The notes beneath the pieces were generated by a model that was given only the letters and a program-made list of their open reading frames with translations, did not search any database and was not told the DNA's origin. Shown here one piece after another: positions 16,867 through 29,663 of a stretch of DNA of 41,949 nucleotides (its first letter is position 1; the number at the start of each line of letters is the position of its first letter). The position numbers and the translations under genes were made by a program. The stretch covers positions 1 through 41,949 of the forward strand of contig SKYV01000261.1 in NCBI GenBank assembly GCA_007127745.1. The letters run 5' to 3'. The DNA comes from Balneolaceae bacterium. Lineage in GTDB: Bacteria; Bacteroidota; Rhodothermia; Balneolales; Balneolaceae.

Positions 16867-18003
16867 TTATACCAGTTTTTTACTGTACATCCGGTAGCGT
16901 TTATCCAGCTCTCCCCCGATCTTTTCTGCTACCCTTACCATGTGTACATTGTTTTCCAAAATCCATCCAACCTCAGAAGAATAATAATTTCTGACCACCC
17001 CGTTTTGTATTGATTCGCGGTGCAAAAGCACGTCTATTCCCTTGCCCTGGTATTTTGGGATAACTCCCATTAAAGCCGTCCGTATTTTATTGATTTTTCT
17101 CTTATTCCACAGAATTTTAAAAATACCGAGTGGTAAAAGTCTTCCATTCATGTTTCTGAAAATCTGATTATAATCAGGAAATGCAACAGAAAACCCAACC
17201 GGGGTACCATCAATTTCTGCAATATGGGCAAAATCGGTATCCACAATCGTTTTCAAATCAGAAGCCAGAGCATCAAATTCTTCGGTTGAAAGAGGTATAA
17301 ATCCCCAGTTGTTTTTCCAGGCACTGTTAAAAATCTCCTTGATGATTCGAACTTCGTCCCTGATTTTTTTCAAATTGATTTTTCTGATCTTAATGCCGGG
17401 TAATCGTTTTTTTACAATATTCACTGCTCTTTCAGCTCTTTCCCGGTCAACACTGTCCTGCGTAACCAAAAATGTCAGCAGGTCCATCTCTTTATCATAT
17501 CCGGCTTGTTTGATCAGCTTATCATAATATGATTTGTGGTAGGGCATCAATATGGATGGATATTTATCAAATCCATCAACCAATATACCGATTTCATCCA
17601 TCATTCCGGGATTTGCCGGCCCCAGAATATCCTTCATTCCACGCTCTTTCAGCCAGTCTTCGGCTACTTTGAAAAGCAGATCTACCGTAGATTGATTGTC
17701 AATACACTCAAAAAAACCAAAAAATCCGGTTCGCCGGTTATGAAACTTGTTGAACCGGTGATCGATAATGGCAGCTATCCTTCCCGCCGGCTCCCCATTG
17801 TAAGTGGCATTAAAGAGAGCAATTTCTGCATTGTTGAAGAATGGATTTTTATTCTTATCGAGCAATTTTTTTTGCTCCATCAAAAGAGGAGCTACCCAAT
17901 ACTGGTCGTTTTTGTAGTGCCTGTATGGAAAACGAACAAAGTTTTTCTTTTCATCTTTTGATGAAACGATCGAAATCTGATTCGTATTCGCTTTCTTACC
18001 CAC
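16867..18003 (-). CDS. GNAT-fold acyltransferase, candidate bacterial ceramide synthase
   Basis: Protein of 378 residues without signal peptide. The N-terminal part has F-V-R-F-P-Y-R-H-Y-K-N-D-x-x-W-V-x-P and a GNAT-like half ending in G-P-A-N-P-G-M-M-D-E. The C-terminal half is a second GNAT-like domain with an acyl-CoA-binding P-K-Y-Q-G-K-G-I-D loop (about 317-325). The start is a GTG at 18003 immediately after the TAA of the serine palmitoyltransferase gene, with no base between, so the two are translationally coupled. In Caulobacter the acyl-CoA-dependent ceramide synthase encoded near spt has a GNAT fold. By context this protein is a good candidate for N-acylating 3-ketosphinganine or sphinganine. 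The function is inference, while the fold and coupling are seen. Confidence 0.75.
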   Translation of the reverse strand: MGKKANTNQISIVSSKDEKKNFVRFPYRHYKNDQYWVAPLLMEQKKLLDKNKNPFFNNAEIALFNATYNGEPAGRIAAIIDHRFNKFHNRRTGFFGFFECIDNQSTVDLLFKVAEDWLKERGMKDILGPANPGMMDEIGILVDGFDKYPSILMPYHKSYYDKLIKQAGYDKEMDLLTFLVTQDSVDRERAERAVNIVKKRLPGIKIRKINLKKIRDEVRIIKEIFNSAWKNNWGFIPLSTEEFDALASDLKTIVDTDFAHIAEIDGTPVGFSVAFPDYNQIFRNMNGRLLPLGIFKILWNKRKINKIRTALMGVIPKYQGKGIDVLLHRESIQNGVVRNYYSSEVGWILENNVHMVRVAEKIGGELDKRYRMYSKKLV

Positions 18004-19251
18004 TTATAATTGTATATCAATGAGTGAACGGCCGTTTTCATCGATAATACCGTGTTTGATACCCACTTTTTTAAAAGCGGCCAGTATTTGATCCAAATGT
18101 TCATCTGTATGCGTAGCCATATAACTTGTGCGCACCAGTGATTGTCCCTGCGGAACAGCCGGCGGCACTACTGCATTTACATATACACCCGCTTCGAAAA
18201 GATCTTTCCAGAATTTAAAACAATCTAACATGTCGCCCACAACAACCGGGATGATTGGGGTCTGGCTGGTTAATACATTAAAACCAAGATTTTTCAACTC
18301 CTTTCGCATGTAATTTGAAATCTCCTCGAGCCTTTCAAGCCTCCATGTTTCCTGCTTCAAAATTTCAAGAGATTTAAGTACGGTAGCCACATTTGCAGGC
18401 GGCATACTGGCACTGAAAATATGAGCCGGAGATTTGTGCCGGATGTATTCTATCACCGCTCTGTCTCCCACAATAAATCCTCCCAGAGAGGCGAATGATT
18501 TGGAAAATGTGCCGCTGATCAGATCTACATCATCCATCATCCCGAAAACCGAAGCAGAACCCCTGCCACCTTCTCCCACAACACCCACAGCATGGGCATC
18601 ATCAAGATAGAGACCGGCTCCAAATTCGTTGGCAAGTTTTACGAGCTCAGGAATATTTGCCAGCATTCCGGACATCGAAAAAACGCCATCGGTCACGATA
18701 ATTTTACCGGCATCTTTATCGGCTTTTTCAAGCAAGTGTCGAAGGTGCTCCATATCGTTATGGCGGTAACGCACCGTTTTTGCGTTGGAGAGCTGAGTGC
18801 CCACAACAATGCAGGCATGATTATCTTTATCGGAGAAAATAATATCGTTCCGGCCGGCAATGGTCTGGATAGAACCTTCATTGGTCTGATAGCCCGTACT
18901 GAATAACACACAGGCATCTTTTCGCATAAAATTAGCCAGCTTTTCTTCAAGTTCCAGGTGCAAATCCAGTGTTCCGTTTAAATATCTTGAACCGGTGCAT
19001 CCGGTACCGTACACTTTTATAACATCCTGAGCAGCTTCAATCGTCCGGGGATCGTTGGTCAGCCCAAGATAGTTGTTTGAACCGGCCATGATCAGATCTC
19101 TTCCCTCGATATTTACAACCGTACCGTTTGTAGCCTGAAGGGGTTTAAAATAGGGGTATAAACCACTCTTTTTGATGTCATCAGCCATTGTAAATTCATA
19201 GGCCTTTTTAAATACTTTACCCCTGGAGGTTTCGGCTTTTAGATCGGACAT
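18004..19251 (-). CDS. spt: Serine palmitoyltransferase (alpha-oxoamine synthase family)
   Basis: PLP enzyme of 415 residues that condenses L-serine with an acyl-CoA to give 3-ketosphinganine, the first step of sphingolipid synthesis. The active site is complete: stacking His145 (D-N-H-A), D-D-A-H with Asp217 and His220, Schiff-base Lys251 in G-T-F-S-K-S-F-A-S-L-G-G, and Arg374 in R-T-S-Y-M-A-T-H-T for the substrate carboxylate. These fit bacterial SPT better than 2-amino-3-ketobutyrate ligase or ALA synthase, though the family is close. It is soluble like the Sphingomonas and Sphingobacterium enzymes. The next gene starts at its stop codon. No acyl carrier protein gene is adjacent. Confidence 0.85.
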   Translation of the reverse strand: MSDLKAETSRGKVFKKAYEFTMADDIKKSGLYPYFKPLQATNGTVVNIEGRDLIMAGSNNYLGLTNDPRTIEAAQDVIKVYGTGCTGSRYLNGTLDLHLELEEKLANFMRKDACVLFSTGYQTNEGSIQTIAGRNDIIFSDKDNHACIVVGTQLSNAKTVRYRHNDMEHLRHLLEKADKDAGKIIVTDGVFSMSGMLANIPELVKLANEFGAGLYLDDAHAVGVVGEGGRGSASVFGMMDDVDLISGTFSKSFASLGGFIVGDRAVIEYIRHKSPAHIFSASMPPANVATVLKSLEILKQETWRLERLEEISNYMRKELKNLGFNVLTSQTPIIPVVVGDMLDCFKFWKDLFEAGVYVNAVVPPAVPQGQSLVRTSYMATHTDEHLDQILAAFKKVGIKHGIIDENGRSLIDIQL

Positions 19252-19332
19252 TTCGTGATCGTTGAATTCATATTAAACAGGTAAATATACCCAGTATTCG
19301 TATTCAATCAAATTATTAACGAATCTGTACTG

Positions 19333-20445
19333 CTATTCATTCACAGTTTTTAAAAATCGAATATATTTGTCCACAACGGTGTCCCAGTTGAATGTTTTAA
19401 GGACATAATCTTCCGATTTTTTCGACAAATCATCCAGTTCGTTCTTAAAAATATAATCAATTTTTTCCGCAAACTTTGAGGCATTTTCCGGCGGAATCCG
19501 ATATCCGTTTACTCCCTGTTCAATAACATCTTTAATTCCTTCAAGATCGGAGGCCACGGCAGGCATTCCGGCTCTGTTGGCCTCCAGCAGTACAATCCCA
19601 AAACCTTCCATATCCCCCTCAACCGGAATGTTGGGCATCACAAATACATCGGCTGCCGAATAACAGACATTTAGCATTTCGAATGACAGTTTTCCGGTCA
19701 TGATAATTTTATCCTGCAAGCCCAAAGAGTCCCTCATGTTGCAAATATTGTCAAATTCAGGACCATCTCCCACAATCAGATACACAACATCGGTTTGAAT
19801 TCGTTGCAATACATGTTTTATAAACCAGGTATGCCCTTTGCGTTTTACCTGCCTGCCAACAGTCAGCAGTATTTTTTTACCTGTGAAGTCTGTGCGAAAT
19901 GCTTCTTCCAATATCTTTTTTGCTTCAACTTTCTCGGGCAACTTTTTCAGCACTTTTGGATCATAACCGTTTGGAAGAGAAACCCCCACATCAGGGTTCA
20001 TTCCACGTTGAATAGAAGCATCCCGTGTTGCTGATGAGACCGAAATAACCCCCTGAAGATGCTTAAAAATATACCGGATATACCACTGATAAATTCGAAC
20101 CGGCAGTGTTACATCCTGCCCGTGATTGATAGTTACACAGGGAATGGCCGGTTTTTTTATCATAAACGGAAGCACTCCGGCTGTAACCATGGATGAAAAC
20201 AAGATTACGTCGGGTCTAAACCTTTGAATTTTTCGGGGTATTTTCCACAAAAGAGTGGCAAGAAAGAAAAAGGTTTTTATTCCAATAAATTTCCAGGAGG
20301 AGTGTAAAATAATCGACTCTAAAACCACATCATCCCTGCGCCTGATCGCTTCGGTCATTTGCACACTAACATTTTGCATGCCTCCAACATTTTCGAGCGG
20401 TTTATTTTTCGGGGGGTGTAGATGTGAAATATACAGTATTCGCAA
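19333..20445 (-). CDS. Family 4 glycosyltransferase (GT-B fold)
   Basis: Retaining glycosyltransferase of 370 residues. The N-terminal Rossmann domain begins L-R-I-L-Y-I-S-H-L-H-P-P and includes a glycine-rich G-G-M-Q-N-V loop. The C-terminal donor domain has V-G-R-Q-V-K-R-K-G-H, V-G-D-G-P-E and the E-x7-E motif in M-E-G-F-G-I-V-L-L-E-A. The start is a TTG at 20445, four bases after the stop of the upstream glycosyltransferase gene, which indicates coupling. Donor and acceptor are unknown. Position between spt and the extended SDR suggests a lipid acceptor such as ceramide, but LPS or another glycan remains possible. Confidence 0.85.
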   Translation of the reverse strand: MRILYISHLHPPKNKPLENVGGMQNVSVQMTEAIRRRDDVVLESIILHSSWKFIGIKTFFFLATLLWKIPRKIQRFRPDVILFSSMVTAGVLPFMIKKPAIPCVTINHGQDVTLPVRIYQWYIRYIFKHLQGVISVSSATRDASIQRGMNPDVGVSLPNGYDPKVLKKLPEKVEAKKILEEAFRTDFTGKKILLTVGRQVKRKGHTWFIKHVLQRIQTDVVYLIVGDGPEFDNICNMRDSLGLQDKIIMTGKLSFEMLNVCYSAADVFVMPNIPVEGDMEGFGIVLLEANRAGMPAVASDLEGIKDVIEQGVNGYRIPPENASKFAEKIDYIFKNELDDLSKKSEDYVLKTFNWDTVVDKYIRFLKTVNE

Positions 20446-20449
20446 ATTC

Positions 20450-21589
20450 TTAGTTTTTAGCCTCCAGAACTTCGTTATAGTAATTTAGAAGTTTGTTATT
20501 GATGGATTTCCAACTGTATGCTTTAGCCTTTTGCAGTGATACACCGGCCATCTTTAACCGCTCCGTCTCATCAATAATCAGTTGTTCTATAAATTTATAG
20601 AATTTATCGGATCTTTCAACGGGCGCAATGTAACCGTTTTTTCCATGCTCTACCAGCGAGCGGCTTCCGGTGGCATCGGCAACTACACACGGCAGCCCGC
20701 TGGCCATTGCTTCCAATGTAACGTTGCCAAAGGTTTCCGTGTCGGAGGGGAAAAAGAAAATATCGCTGTTTGCGTAAGCACTGGCAAGTTCAACTCCTGT
20801 TAAAAAACCTGTAAAAACAGCTTCAGGAAGCATCTTCTTCAGGCCTTCACCCGCAGGACCGTCTCCCACAATCAACGCCCTTGCCTGCGGATATTTCTTC
20901 TTCAACCTGTTTACAACATCAGCATATAATTTTAAATTTTTTTCCCACACAAGCCGGGAGATAAAAGTAATCACAACATCCTGTTCTTTAAATCCGTGTT
21001 TTTCTCTCCAGGCTTCATCACGCTTTTGGGGATTAAATTGGTCGAGATCTATTCCTCGTGCCCATATTCTGAGATCGCTCTCAATATTATTTTCTTTCAG
21101 GAATTTTGCCATGGATGGCGACGGAACATACACTTGCCTGCAATGCCTGTAAAACCATTTCAGATATTTCCACAAAATCGGTTCAAGCAGAGACAGCCGG
21201 TAATATTTTAAATAGCTTGAAAAATGGGTATGATAGGATGCCACTATGGGCTTTTGATTTTTTTTAGCCCATTTCAGTACCCGTAAGCCAAGATAATCGG
21301 GGGTGGCGATGTGCACGATATCGGGATCAAAATCTTTCAACTTTTTGCGCACAGTTTTTGGGAATGATCGCGAAAAACGATACTCGGGCCTGCCGGGTAA
21401 TTTTATTGATGGTACGGGAATGAGCGTTCCGGCGTGTTCAAGTGCAGGATTTTCAACAGTTGGCCCGAAAACAAGAACCTCCACATTTTGTTTCAATAAA
21501 AAAGCCACCAAACGGTTCAGTGTTAAAGAAACACCATCACGAATATGGTTATAATTACCTGTAAAAATTGCTACTTTGAACGTGCTCAT
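20450..21589 (-). CDS. Family 4 glycosyltransferase, MgtA/PimB-like
   Basis: GT-B enzyme of 379 residues, beginning with ATG at 21589 (M-S-T-F-K-V-A-I-F-T). An upstream in-frame start at 21604 would only add five residues and reach further into the divergent promoter. It has the D-G-V-S-L-T-L-N-R-L loop for the acceptor side, G-D-G-P-A-G-E-G-L, and the donor-binding E-x7-E segment S-D-T-E-T-F-G-N-V-T-L-E-A-M-A-S-G. This subgroup includes glycolipid-forming enzymes that act at the membrane surface. It is the first gene of a leftward two-gene set and is divergent from the extended SDR gene by 88 bases. Confidence 0.85.
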   Translation of the reverse strand: MSTFKVAIFTGNYNHIRDGVSLTLNRLVAFLLKQNVEVLVFGPTVENPALEHAGTLIPVPSIKLPGRPEYRFSRSFPKTVRKKLKDFDPDIVHIATPDYLGLRVLKWAKKNQKPIVASYHTHFSSYLKYYRLSLLEPILWKYLKWFYRHCRQVYVPSPSMAKFLKENNIESDLRIWARGIDLDQFNPQKRDEAWREKHGFKEQDVVITFISRLVWEKNLKLYADVVNRLKKKYPQARALIVGDGPAGEGLKKMLPEAVFTGFLTGVELASAYANSDIFFFPSDTETFGNVTLEAMASGLPCVVADATGSRSLVEHGKNGYIAPVERSDKFYKFIEQLIIDETERLKMAGVSLQKAKAYSWKSINNKLLNYYNEVLEAKN

Positions 21590-21677
21590 ACTTTTTAAAT
21601 GCAATTGCCATATTTGTATCTTATGGCATTGTGTGGTTAATATCCCAATTTTAAAAGTGCTTGAATATACAAATTTA

Positions 21678-22652
21678 ATGAATGCATTTATTACCGGAGG
21701 AACCGGATTTATTGGAAGTCATCTTGCAGATACATTAATTGAACATACTGGCTGGAATGAGATCAAATGTTTGGTTCGAAATAGGGAAAAGTGGCTGGAA
21801 GGAAAACGTTATGCAAGAGTTAAAGGAGATCTTCATTCCATCCATAGCATTGAAAAAGCACTGGTTGATACGGATGTGATTTTTCACCTCGCCGGAGTGG
21901 TGAAAGCTCCCACGCAAAAGGAGTTTGATTTTGCCAATGTGGAAGCCACCGAAAATCTGATCCGCCTTGCCCAAAAAACCGGTGTTAAAAAATTGGTAAT
22001 CTTGTCATCACTTGCTGCATGCGGACCCAGCAATGGACGTCCACGCTCCGAGGCGGACCCGATGAAACCGGTGAGTATGTACGGTAATTCCAAGAAAAAA
22101 ATGGAAGAGATGATCCAAAAAACCGCCGATTCTGATCTGTCTATTACAATTCTCCGCCCTCCCGCTGTGTACGGACCTCGCGAGGAGCAAATTTTCACCC
22201 TGTTTAAAATGATGAACAAAGGGATTGCCCCGATTGTGGGAGATGGTGAAAATCCAAAACTCTCTATTATTTATGTAGATGATTTGATTCAAGCAATTAT
22301 GAAGGCTGCCGAACAGACCCAAAACGGAGTTCATACCTATTTTGTAAGTGGTGAAAAAATTGTCTCCTGGAATCAAATTACCGACATCGTAAAAATTGTA
22401 CTGAACAAAAAGATCACCCCGATCAAGATTAAGCCCGATTGGGTAAAAAAAATAGCCGGAGCAATTGAAACAACAGCGTCATTTTTTGGTTCATATCCCG
22501 TTATCAACAGGGAAAAGGCGAACGAAATGGTGCTGGAATGGACCTGTTCACACCAAAAAGCTGAAGCTGAACTGAATTATAAACCAGAATATTCGCTCGA
22601 AGAAGGTATTTCAAGAACTCTCAGATGGTATAAACAACATAACTGGCTGTAA
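21678..22652 (+). CDS. Extended SDR (NAD-dependent epimerase/dehydratase family), candidate ceramide reductase
   Basis: Cytoplasmic oxidoreductase of 324 residues from the ATG at 21678. A longer in-frame start at 21576 would overlap the divergent gene and place 34 unrelated residues before the Rossmann fold. The cofactor motif G-G-T-G-F-I-G is at 7-13, the active-site Ser at 110-111 (L-S-S-L-A) and Y-G-N-S-K at 135-139 (Tyr135, Lys139). H-L-A-G-V-V near 70-75 and R-P-P-A-V-Y-G are also typical. In Caulobacter the ketone of N-acyl-3-ketosphinganine is reduced by a protein of this family (CerR), so this gene may supply the third step of ceramide synthesis. A nucleotide-sugar epimerase role is the alternative. 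Confidence 0.8.
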   Translation: MNAFITGGTGFIGSHLADTLIEHTGWNEIKCLVRNREKWLEGKRYARVKGDLHSIHSIEKALVDTDVIFHLAGVVKAPTQKEFDFANVEATENLIRLAQKTGVKKLVILSSLAACGPSNGRPRSEADPMKPVSMYGNSKKKMEEMIQKTADSDLSITILRPPAVYGPREEQIFTLFKMMNKGIAPIVGDGENPKLSIIYVDDLIQAIMKAAEQTQNGVHTYFVSGEKIVSWNQITDIVKIVLNKKITPIKIKPDWVKKIAGAIETTASFFGSYPVINREKANEMVLEWTCSHQKAEAELNYKPEYSLEEGISRTLRWYKQHNWL

Positions 22653-22656
22653 CTCT

Positions 22657-24216
22657 ATGACGAAATTATTGATACGCACACTTCTCATCTCACTGGCCCT
22701 TGTTTTGGCATGGTTCAATCCATCAAACGGGCAGCAGCTTCTCAAAGATCTCAGTAAACAGATCGAGATTCCCAACATCAAAAATATCAACAGTTCGGAT
22801 ACCCATCTCTATGTTTTATCGGAGAGCGAAGGGCTGGTGGTATTTCGTACTCAAAGTGATTCATTACAGTGGCTCTATTCCTCGACCGGCATGCAGGAGC
22901 GCGGCCACATTCTGGAAAGTGATATACGTTTTGCCTATCTCTACGGCAACAACCGAAGGCTCACAGTTGTTGAACCAACTTCGGTTCTTGGAGTTTATTC
23001 TTCCACAGTTCTGCCGGCACGCCCGCTTGCTGCAGAGCGGATCGGGTACAGGTTATTTTTGGCACTCGGAGAACATGGACTCGGAGAAATTAGTCTCGAA
23101 ACACCGGAAACAGTGGATTCCGGTATCAACCGTATTATTGAAAATGAACAAATCAGAGATCTTGCGAGTGATGGCGTTAATACGTTGTATGTGCTGAACC
23201 ATCAAAACGAAATTCTGATTTACGAAGCTGACGATGACAATGTAAACAGGCTGAGCAGTGTGTCTGCAGACCGGAATATTGAACGGCTTTTCTTGACGGA
23301 CGACGAACTGATTGGCACCGATAGCAGCGGTAACATATTTTTAATTAGTTCTGATGGCAATACAAGAACCGTTTCTTCAGTTTCCGGTTCAGTTGAACGG
23401 CTTTCCATCTGGAACGGGCGCCTTCTGGTACGCACACAAAACCACGAATTGTGGACAGGCCCGATGAACGGAGATCTGGAAACCTGGAAATCAGATGAAC
23501 ATTCCGGAAATTTCTTCGCCATCTCTGAAAATATCCTGTGGGTTAATGAATTCAACAGTGTGGCGCCGGTGATTTCATCTGAAAGCACTGCGTCTTCAGT
23601 TTCGGCTCAAACCGGAGAGGGTGCTTTCCGGATCAGGCCTGTCGATGACGTTGTTCTGCCATTCCCCCGCCCGCTTTTGCTGCCCATCGAATTTGAAGCC
23701 GATGTGGATCTGTCACAAATTTCACTCAGCTACGATGCCCCATTTAACAATGCACGCATCCGTGGTAAATCGTTCTATTGGCAGCCATCGGCCAATCAGT
23801 CCGGACGCCACAACGTCACCATAACCGCTACAACCGCTGATGGCCGGTCCGACAGCATCAACTTCACCATTGATCTCCGCCCGTTTAATGCACCCCCGAG
23901 ATTTTCGCCCGCACGGCCGGTAACCGTTCCCGTTGACGAAGAGTTTGAACTTCAAATTTCAGCCGTTGACCCCGACGGGATGGATCAATCCCTGATTCGC
24001 TACCTTGGTGTGGACATGCCCAATGGTGCCAGTCTGAATGAAAGTACCGGCATGTTCACATGGACTCCAACAATACGACAGGTTGGCGAGCATCAGTTTC
24101 AGGTGATTGCCACAGATCAGTTTGGGGCAGCTGCATCACAGGATTTTACCATCAATGTAATCGAAATTGAAGAGGGTGACCCTATCGACTTCGATTTTGA
24201 TGAGGATTCGGATTGA
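22657..24216 (+). CDS. Exported protein with propeller-like N-terminal part and putative Ig domain
   Basis: Protein of 519 residues. Residues 1-25 are a Sec signal peptide ending near N-G-Q-Q. Residues of about 30-310 contain repeated blade-like strands (for example H-L-Y-V-L-S-E-S-E-G and T-L-Y-V-L-N-H-Q-N-E), suggesting a beta-propeller. Two beta-sandwich modules follow at about 330-405 and 409-502. The second has the P-x-D-E-E-F-x-L-Q-I-S-A-V-D-P-D-G and G-M-F-T-W-T-P pattern of He_PIG/cadherin-like domains. The last 15 residues are strongly acidic. It starts four bases after the extended SDR gene and its end overlaps the mutY ATG. A cell-envelope binding role is inferred, with ligand unknown. 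No type IX sorting domain is visible. Confidence 0.75.
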   Translation: MTKLLIRTLLISLALVLAWFNPSNGQQLLKDLSKQIEIPNIKNINSSDTHLYVLSESEGLVVFRTQSDSLQWLYSSTGMQERGHILESDIRFAYLYGNNRRLTVVEPTSVLGVYSSTVLPARPLAAERIGYRLFLALGEHGLGEISLETPETVDSGINRIIENEQIRDLASDGVNTLYVLNHQNEILIYEADDDNVNRLSSVSADRNIERLFLTDDELIGTDSSGNIFLISSDGNTRTVSSVSGSVERLSIWNGRLLVRTQNHELWTGPMNGDLETWKSDEHSGNFFAISENILWVNEFNSVAPVISSESTASSVSAQTGEGAFRIRPVDDVVLPFPRPLLLPIEFEADVDLSQISLSYDAPFNNARIRGKSFYWQPSANQSGRHNVTITATTADGRSDSINFTIDLRPFNAPPRFSPARPVTVPVDEEFELQISAVDPDGMDQSLIRYLGVDMPNGASLNESTGMFTWTPTIRQVGEHQFQVIATDQFGAAASQDFTINVIEIEEGDPIDFDFDEDSD

Positions 24217-28613: not shown

Positions 28614-29663
28614 TTATTTATTGACCTGTTCCAGCTTTTCCGAAACCGTTTCGTTTATGTACCAAAACATTGCGATTATTCCAAGCCCGATACTGATGTA
28701 GTACGTGATAATTCTCCACACGAAAACCGCCAATCCGATAAATGCAGTGCGGTCAATCAGCGGCCCGAGAAAGATGGCAAAAAGTCCCTCAACGCCGCCA
28801 GATCCCCCGGGTGTGGGTATCACAAGAAATGCAAGATTCATGGCAAGGCTTCTGAGCACCATCAAAATTTCTTCGCCGGGCAGAAGGCTTAAAATCACAA
28901 TAACGGGAATAGCGATTCGGCAAAGCCAGCTCATTGTTGATAAAAAGAATGCTTTTAACACAAATGAGATAGGCTTTTTACGAAGGAGAATCGAATAACT
29001 TTCGAGGTTTTCTGCCTCCTGATTTACCTTTTTTGAATATTTTCTGAGAATCGGCCAGCTAAAAATGACCTTGATTGTCTTTTTCAAAAATGCCGGGTTT
29101 ACCAACAATCCATAAGCCAGCAAGGCACCGTATGCCAGCAGACCGGCATAAATCAGCATCATGGTGATGTTGCCAACCAATCCAATTTCTTCCGGCAAAA
29201 CCGGGAAAAAAAGGCTCGAAACAAGAAGAATAGGCACTGCCAGCGCATACCAGAATTGATCGAGCATTACACCATACAAAACAATGGCTGAAGATTGGCC
29301 AAGTTTTATTCCCTCTCGTGTCATTGCAAAGGTGGCTACCGGTGCCCCGCCAATGGTAGATGGTGTGATTGCAGAAGCAAAATCCCAGGTAAGTGCGATA
29401 CGAATGGATGCCATTTTCCCAATGGCTTTATCGGCCAGAAAACGAATTTTTGCTGCAGAAAAATAAACTTTCAGAAGTGTAACTGCGATAGCAATCACAA
29501 GTCCCGGCAGGCGTTTTGGAGCCAGATGTTCCAAAATTCCGGGAGTGTAGGTCAGATAAATCACAATTCCCATACTGATCATACTCAAAGCAATCGAAAT
29601 TGCAAGGTATTTAAAGGAAATCAGCGGCCCCTTCGATGAGATATTTTGTGCTTTATTTGACAA
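28614..29663 (-). CDS. Lysylphosphatidylglycerol synthase TM-region / flippase-like membrane protein
   Basis: Polytopic protein of 349 residues with about seven to eight transmembrane helices and no catalytic soluble domain, belonging to the UPF0104/TIGR00374 group. Characteristic blocks are T-P-S-T-I-G-G-A-P-V-A (about 97-107) and I-P-T-P-G-G-S-G-G-V-E-G near 283-294. The C-terminus ends in a short charged tail. Members move or help to synthesise lipids, and the substrate is not evident. The first possible start is TTG at 29663. The aldolase gene upstream ends with a strong terminator, so this gene and radA form their own unit. Confidence 0.85.
   Translation of the reverse strand: MSNKAQNISSKGPLISFKYLAISIALSMISMGIVIYLTYTPGILEHLAPKRLPGLVIAIAVTLLKVYFSAAKIRFLADKAIGKMASIRIALTWDFASAITPSTIGGAPVATFAMTREGIKLGQSSAIVLYGVMLDQFWYALAVPILLVSSLFFPVLPEEIGLVGNITMMLIYAGLLAYGALLAYGLLVNPAFLKKTIKVIFSWPILRKYSKKVNQEAENLESYSILLRKKPISFVLKAFFLSTMSWLCRIAIPVIVILSLLPGEEILMVLRSLAMNLAFLVIPTPGGSGGVEGLFAIFLGPLIDRTAFIGLAVFVWRIITYYISIGLGIIAMFWYINETVSEKLEQVNK

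Follow-up and report, generated by a model that had tools for sequence, protein, structure and literature searches.

Ceramide gene clusters and the Balneolaceae locus

Ceramide is a lipid most familiar from animals and plants. The closest described relatives of the locus reported here are the ceramide genes of Caulobacter crescentus (spt, bcerS and cerR) and Escherichia coli BL21 (spt, yghO and ECD_02852). These clusters also carry a dedicated acyl carrier protein (ACP) and an acyl-ACP synthetase (PMC9386255), and co-localisation of Spt, bCerS and CerR has already been reported (PMC11334938). The ceramide glycosyltransferases known from bacteria, including the alpha-galactosylceramide synthase BF9343_3149 of Bacteroides fragilis and the ceramide glucuronosyltransferase of Zymomonas, are GT4 enzymes with an EX7E-type motif (PMC9692976), and those described below are likened to them by description. 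Analysis of a 41,949-nucleotide stretch of DNA from a Balneolaceae bacterium (contig SKYV01000261.1 of assembly GCA_007127745.1; the whole stretch is hereafter termed the window) revealed a candidate ceramide biosynthesis locus at 16867-22652, in which the three enzyme families of the Caulobacter and E. coli systems are joined by two GT4 genes, GT_A and GT_B. Whereas the ceramide genes of Bacteroidota have been reported as unclustered (PMC11334938), the GT4 genes of the window lie inside the core cluster.

The host genome (3.07 Mb, 94% complete) belongs to a salt-loving relative of Rhodohalobacter within the Balneolota, Balneolales and Balneolaceae, in agreement with the Bacteroidota/Balneolota-like host that had been proposed from the sequence. 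Four of the five genes lie on the minus strand, in the reading order GT_A (21604-20450), GT_B (20445-19333), serine palmitoyltransferase (SPT; 19251-18004) and a GNAT-family N-acyltransferase (18003-16867), whilst a short-chain dehydrogenase/reductase (SDR; 21678-22652) diverges from them on the plus strand. Only 4 bases separate GT_A from GT_B and 81 separate GT_B from the SPT gene. The original prediction had named five adjacent genes, with a GNAT beginning at the base after the SPT gene; Pfam and NCBIfam searches returned the same families (alpha-oxoamine synthase/SPT, GNAT, two GT4 and an extended SDR of the Epimerase/3Beta_HSD type), and the GTG start of the GNAT was indeed found immediately after the SPT stop codon (...TATAAGTGGGTAAG...). 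The SDR start was corrected to ATG 21678 (MNAFITGGTGFIG..., 324 aa), since the mechanically assigned TTG at 21576 overlaps the start of GT_A, for which an alternative start exists at 21589. The short intergenic region between the divergent GT_A and cerR-type genes (21605-21677) is, from the layout, the putative site of both promoters. A search for RNA families returned none.

The probable ceramide core: serine palmitoyltransferase, N-acyltransferase and reductase

The SPT gene encodes a pyridoxal phosphate (PLP)-dependent alpha-oxoamine synthase of 415 aa. In a sequence search of the PDB, its top two matches were to the SPT of Sphingobacterium multivorum (422 bits), with far lower scores to the cysteate acyltransferase SulA (7u7h, 217 bits) and to cysteate-C-fatty acyltransferase (28eh, about 216 bits). 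Amongst NCBIfam models, the Bacteroidota-type SPT model NF047600 ranked first with 500 bits, more than 100 bits above any other. The active-site motifs SNNYLG (58), DNHACI (143), DDAH (217), GTFSK (containing the PLP-binding Lys251) and LVRTS (372) were all present. Residue 281 (K251+30) is Ala, as it is in the SPT-linked relatives that were checked; Lys281 in SulA versus Ala in SPT has been described as separating cysteate acyltransferases from SPTs (PMC9304779). A BioF or Kbl identity was ruled out by these scores and by a tree in which the E. coli BioF and Kbl proteins fell outside the SPT set, on long branches. The strict NCBIfam cut-off apart, every test applied thus assigns the enzyme as an SPT. 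It is 39% identical to the E. coli BL21 spt product but, unlike the Caulobacter and E. coli systems, is of the Sphingobacterium type.

The GNAT (378 aa) matched its Pfam family weakly (Acetyltransf_1, 6e-5), and searching its sequence against solved structures gave no meaningful match. It was, however, 36% identical to YghO of E. coli BL21 over 377 aa, that is, over its full length (E=5e-80). In that genome yghO has spt as a neighbour, together with genes for an acyl carrier protein, an acyl-AMP ligase and an SDR, and YghO has been listed as the homologue of CC_1154, the Caulobacter N-acyltransferase bCerS (PMC9386255). An AlphaFold model predicted a tandem GNAT (pLDDT 90), a fold that points to an acyltransferase without telling which one. 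The host genome encodes a second YghO-like GNAT (G000:C176:23694-24803, L067), 29% identical to that of the window. As a candidate for the true bCerS this paralogue was rejected, being further from YghO (27% versus 36%) and falling in a separate clade, the members of which had no spt nearby where flanks were long enough.

The SDR sequence opens at its Rossmann motif (GGTGFIG at 7) and carries Ser110, Tyr135 and Lys139. When the E. coli CerR homologue ECD_02852 was searched against the host genome, the window SDR was the single clear best match (5e-26), the next scoring 1e-7. It has no obvious signal peptide; CerR of Caulobacter is periplasmic and associated with the inner membrane (PMC11087976). 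The GNAT is hence nearest to YghO/bCerS, and the SDR matches the E. coli CerR homologue better than any other protein of the host, so that the kinship with unrelated families which would have counted against a ceramide locus was not encountered.

Glycosyltransferases

Both glycosyltransferases were assigned to GT4 by Pfam and carry the EX7E motif, at residues 290-298 in GT_A and 280-288 in GT_B. The nearest NCBIfam relatives of GT_A are GT4 enzymes with lipid acceptors, namely N-acetylglucosaminyl phosphatidylglycerol (GlcN-PG) synthase (151 bits), the lipoteichoic acid (LTA)-anchor enzymes IagA/BgsA and monoglucosyldiacylglycerol (MGlcDAG) synthases; amongst solved structures, PimA comes closest to GT_A. 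The relatives of GT_B are generic GT4s of the BshA type. Their position in the locus makes ceramide a plausible acceptor for both, a matter that sequence alone cannot decide.

Conservation and synteny

The order SDR (divergent), GT_A, GT_B where present, SPT and GNAT was constant in orientation and arrangement across 34/34 Balneolales neighbourhoods, as the original prediction would lead one to expect, indicating that the arrangement reflects more than chance. GT_A was found in every one of the 34 genomes checked and never apart from the core. GT_B was present in 28, its slot being the variable one: all five examined members of one family (f3) lacked it, and another GT4 stood in its place in genome G030. 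Two Gracilimonas contigs (L093 and L109) carried a second, divergent GT4 in the GT_B slot. An extra GT4, 25% identical to GT_A, was also observed between the GNAT gene and fumC in a genome of the genus Rhodohalobacter (G003, L045:9206-10429).

A scan of bacterial genomes with a GNAT alignment retrieved 47 loci outside the Balneolales, distributed amongst Ignavibacteria, Gemmatimonadota, Nitrospirota, Binatota, Zixibacteria, Planctomycetota and others. The GNAT gene, linked to spt in all 34 Balneolales, was adjoined by an SPT gene in 33 of these loci; an SDR gene was present in 29, and both genes in 28. Such SDR-SPT-GNAT clusters comprise the same three genes as the window, with SPT identities of 46-56% and GNAT identities of 40-46%, and in most Ignavibacteria and related loci the SDR is likewise divergent from SPT-GNAT. 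Unlike the window, however, the distant clusters have no GT4 between SDR and SPT. A GT4 gene occurred in just one of the 47 loci, there 3' of the GNAT, and Pfam scans of genes flanking the distant SPT-GNAT clusters otherwise returned unrelated functions. This independent GT4 adjoins SPT-GNAT in the Gemmatimonadota contig L144. Fourteen of the 47 loci lacked an SPT gene: five had short flanks, and the other nine formed part of one well-supported, Ignavibacteria-rich GNAT clade (L111, L112, L114, L115, L116, L118, L119, L122 and L129, all with no SPT within their flanks). The GNATs of this clade may have another role, or may act with an unlinked SPT.

The gene order had been described as different from that of Caulobacter. 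The order of the SDR-SPT-GNAT core is common to many phyla, so that only the GT4 genes are distinctive in the Balneolales. A ceramide core with a divergent SDR is therefore widespread and had been described in outline before (PMC11334938); what sets the Balneolales apart, across the whole order, is that GT4 genes stand between the SDR and SPT genes.

Proposed pathway and alternative explanations

The locus is best explained, and probably so, as a Balneolales ceramide biosynthesis locus with built-in glycosylation. The gene identities rest on homology, catalytic motifs and conserved synteny, which together support a ceramide core well; from these we infer what each enzyme does, in what order the last two steps run, that serine is the substrate and ceramide the glycosyltransferase acceptor, and which sugars are used. 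In the proposed pathway, the SPT would first use a fatty acyl thioester in a condensation with an amino acid, most probably L-serine, that yields 3-ketosphinganine. The tandem GNAT of the YghO/bCerS type would then N-acylate this to 3-keto-(dihydro)ceramide, and the CerR-type SDR would reduce the 3-keto group after acylation, the order that has been argued for Caulobacter (PMC11087976). GT_A, as a lipid-type retaining GT4, would add a sugar to the C1 hydroxyl, to which GT_B would, in most lineages, add a second. An AasR orthologue was not found in the host genome, where only short, weak matches were obtained, which led us to reject an AcpR/AasR-dependent (rhodobacterial) SPT system and sets the host apart from the Caulobacter and E. 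coli clusters with their dedicated synthetase; the acyl group presumably comes from acyl-CoA or from ordinary acyl-ACP. The joint pathway to a glycosylated ceramide, as originally proposed, is thereby well supported in its ceramide core, whilst its sugar step, which depends on an acceptor activity deduced for the GT4 enzymes, is plausible.

Several points weigh against this explanation. The SPT falls below the equivalog cut-off of NF047600 (500 versus 640 bits), and the SDR is only 25% identical to ECD_02852. The E. coli proteins YghO and ECD_02852 served as proxies for Caulobacter bCerS and CerR, and the glycosyltransferases of the window were set beside the B. fragilis alpha-galactosylceramide synthase by description only. 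Neither the acceptor nor the sugar of a GT4 enzyme can be read from its sequence, and a search of the literature available yielded no lipidomics of Balneolota sphingolipids and nothing on sphingolipids or glycolipids in the Balneolaceae.

The rival explanation that deserves most attention accepts a ceramide core but has both GT4 enzymes acting on another lipid, for example diacylglycerol, or on a glycan, their presence in the locus being due only to shared ancestry or regulation. The closest GT_A relatives of characterised function work on diacylglycerol, phosphatidylglycerol or phosphatidylinositol, the relatives of GT_B are generic, and some lineages have lost or swapped GT_B yet retain the core. 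We nevertheless regard it as unlikely, given that GT_A stands between the CerR-type gene and SPT, in the orientation of SPT, in 34/34 Balneolales, that an independent GT4 adjoins SPT-GNAT in a Gemmatimonadota contig, and that the known bacterial ceramide glycosyltransferases belong to GT4 (PMC9692976).

Other alternatives concern the first enzyme. Were the SPT to use alanine or glycine, the product would be a 1-deoxyceramide, which the glycosyltransferases could not then glycosylate at C1; 1-deoxyceramides occur amongst bacteria with Spt-like proteins (PMC11334938), and weak use of Ala and Gly is described for the S. multivorum SPT (PMC10196870). The two neighbouring GT4 genes suggest instead a product with a glycosylatable hydroxyl, and we consider a deoxyceramide product improbable. 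Synthesis of a sulfonolipid of the capnine type, with the alpha-oxoamine synthase acting as SulA, would accord with the close relationship of SulA to SPT and with the occurrence of sulfonolipids in Bacteroidota and their relatives (PMC9304779). We reject this identity for the locus as highly improbable, since the enzyme of the window has Ala where SulA has Lys281 and scores 422 bits to SPT versus 217 to SulA, and since a distinct SulA-type gene encoding the signature Lys lies elsewhere in the genome.

Neighbouring genes

A gene at 22657-24216 (plus strand) begins 4 bases after the cerR-type gene, has the same place behind the SDR gene in almost every Balneolales locus and is a possible operon partner. 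Its product has a signal peptide, an N-terminal part predicted to be all-beta and propeller-like, and Ig-like domains thereafter (Pfam He_PIG/Big_9; AlphaFold pLDDT 84). As the CerR of Caulobacter lies in the periplasm and has an unknown partner, a link between this secreted protein and the CerR-type SDR is conceivable. Further away, 6 kb from the cerR-type gene, the window encodes a PF03706 membrane protein of the lysylphosphatidylglycerol-synthase type (28614-29663), and in a ceramide cluster from the Gemmatimonadota the GNAT gene is directly followed by one for another PF03706 protein (L121:11124-12152). One might speculate that the PF03706 proteins near ceramide genes act as flippases.

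A second alpha-oxoamine synthase and implications for the Balneolales

The sole other alpha-oxoamine synthase found in the host genome is encoded on another contig (G000:C183:2338-3597, L071). It scored 447 bits against cysteate-C-fatty acyltransferase 28eh and 433 bits against SulA 7u7h, and carries the Lys that marks SulA. Orthologues (at least 73% identity) were present in nearly all members of the Balneolaceae-level family to which the host belongs, and in 0/24 genomes representing the four remaining families of the Balneolales. The second GNAT, on C176, has the same family-level distribution and is possibly a sulfonolipid N-acyltransferase, though no consistent physical linkage of the two genes was found. 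With a SulA-type gene in the same genome as the ceramide locus, the Balneolaceae are likely to produce sulfonolipids as well as ceramides. A bioF gene has been reported in all Balneolaceae studied, even those without bioA and bioD (PMC9909488); these reports likely reflect SPT or SulA genes annotated as bioF.

The fullest version of our explanation is a Balneolales-wide glycosphingolipid locus, in which GT_A adds the first sugar and GT_B the second, the GT_B slot having been lost or swapped in places, and which in the Balneolaceae operates alongside a separate SulA sulfonolipid pathway to give two sphingoid-type classes of envelope lipid. To this combination as a whole we assign slightly less than an even chance. 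It is probable that the order as a whole makes sugar-decorated ceramides. If so, one compact locus would equip an entire order of halophiles to make glycosylated ceramides, and specific glycosyltransferases would be tied to bacterial ceramide, in contrast to Bacteroides, whose pathway genes lie scattered and whose glycosyltransferase had to be identified by other means. Cultured strains possess the locus, making the prediction directly testable by lipidomics, and where the SulA-type gene coexists with it, ceramide and sulfonolipid would be expected in the same cells.

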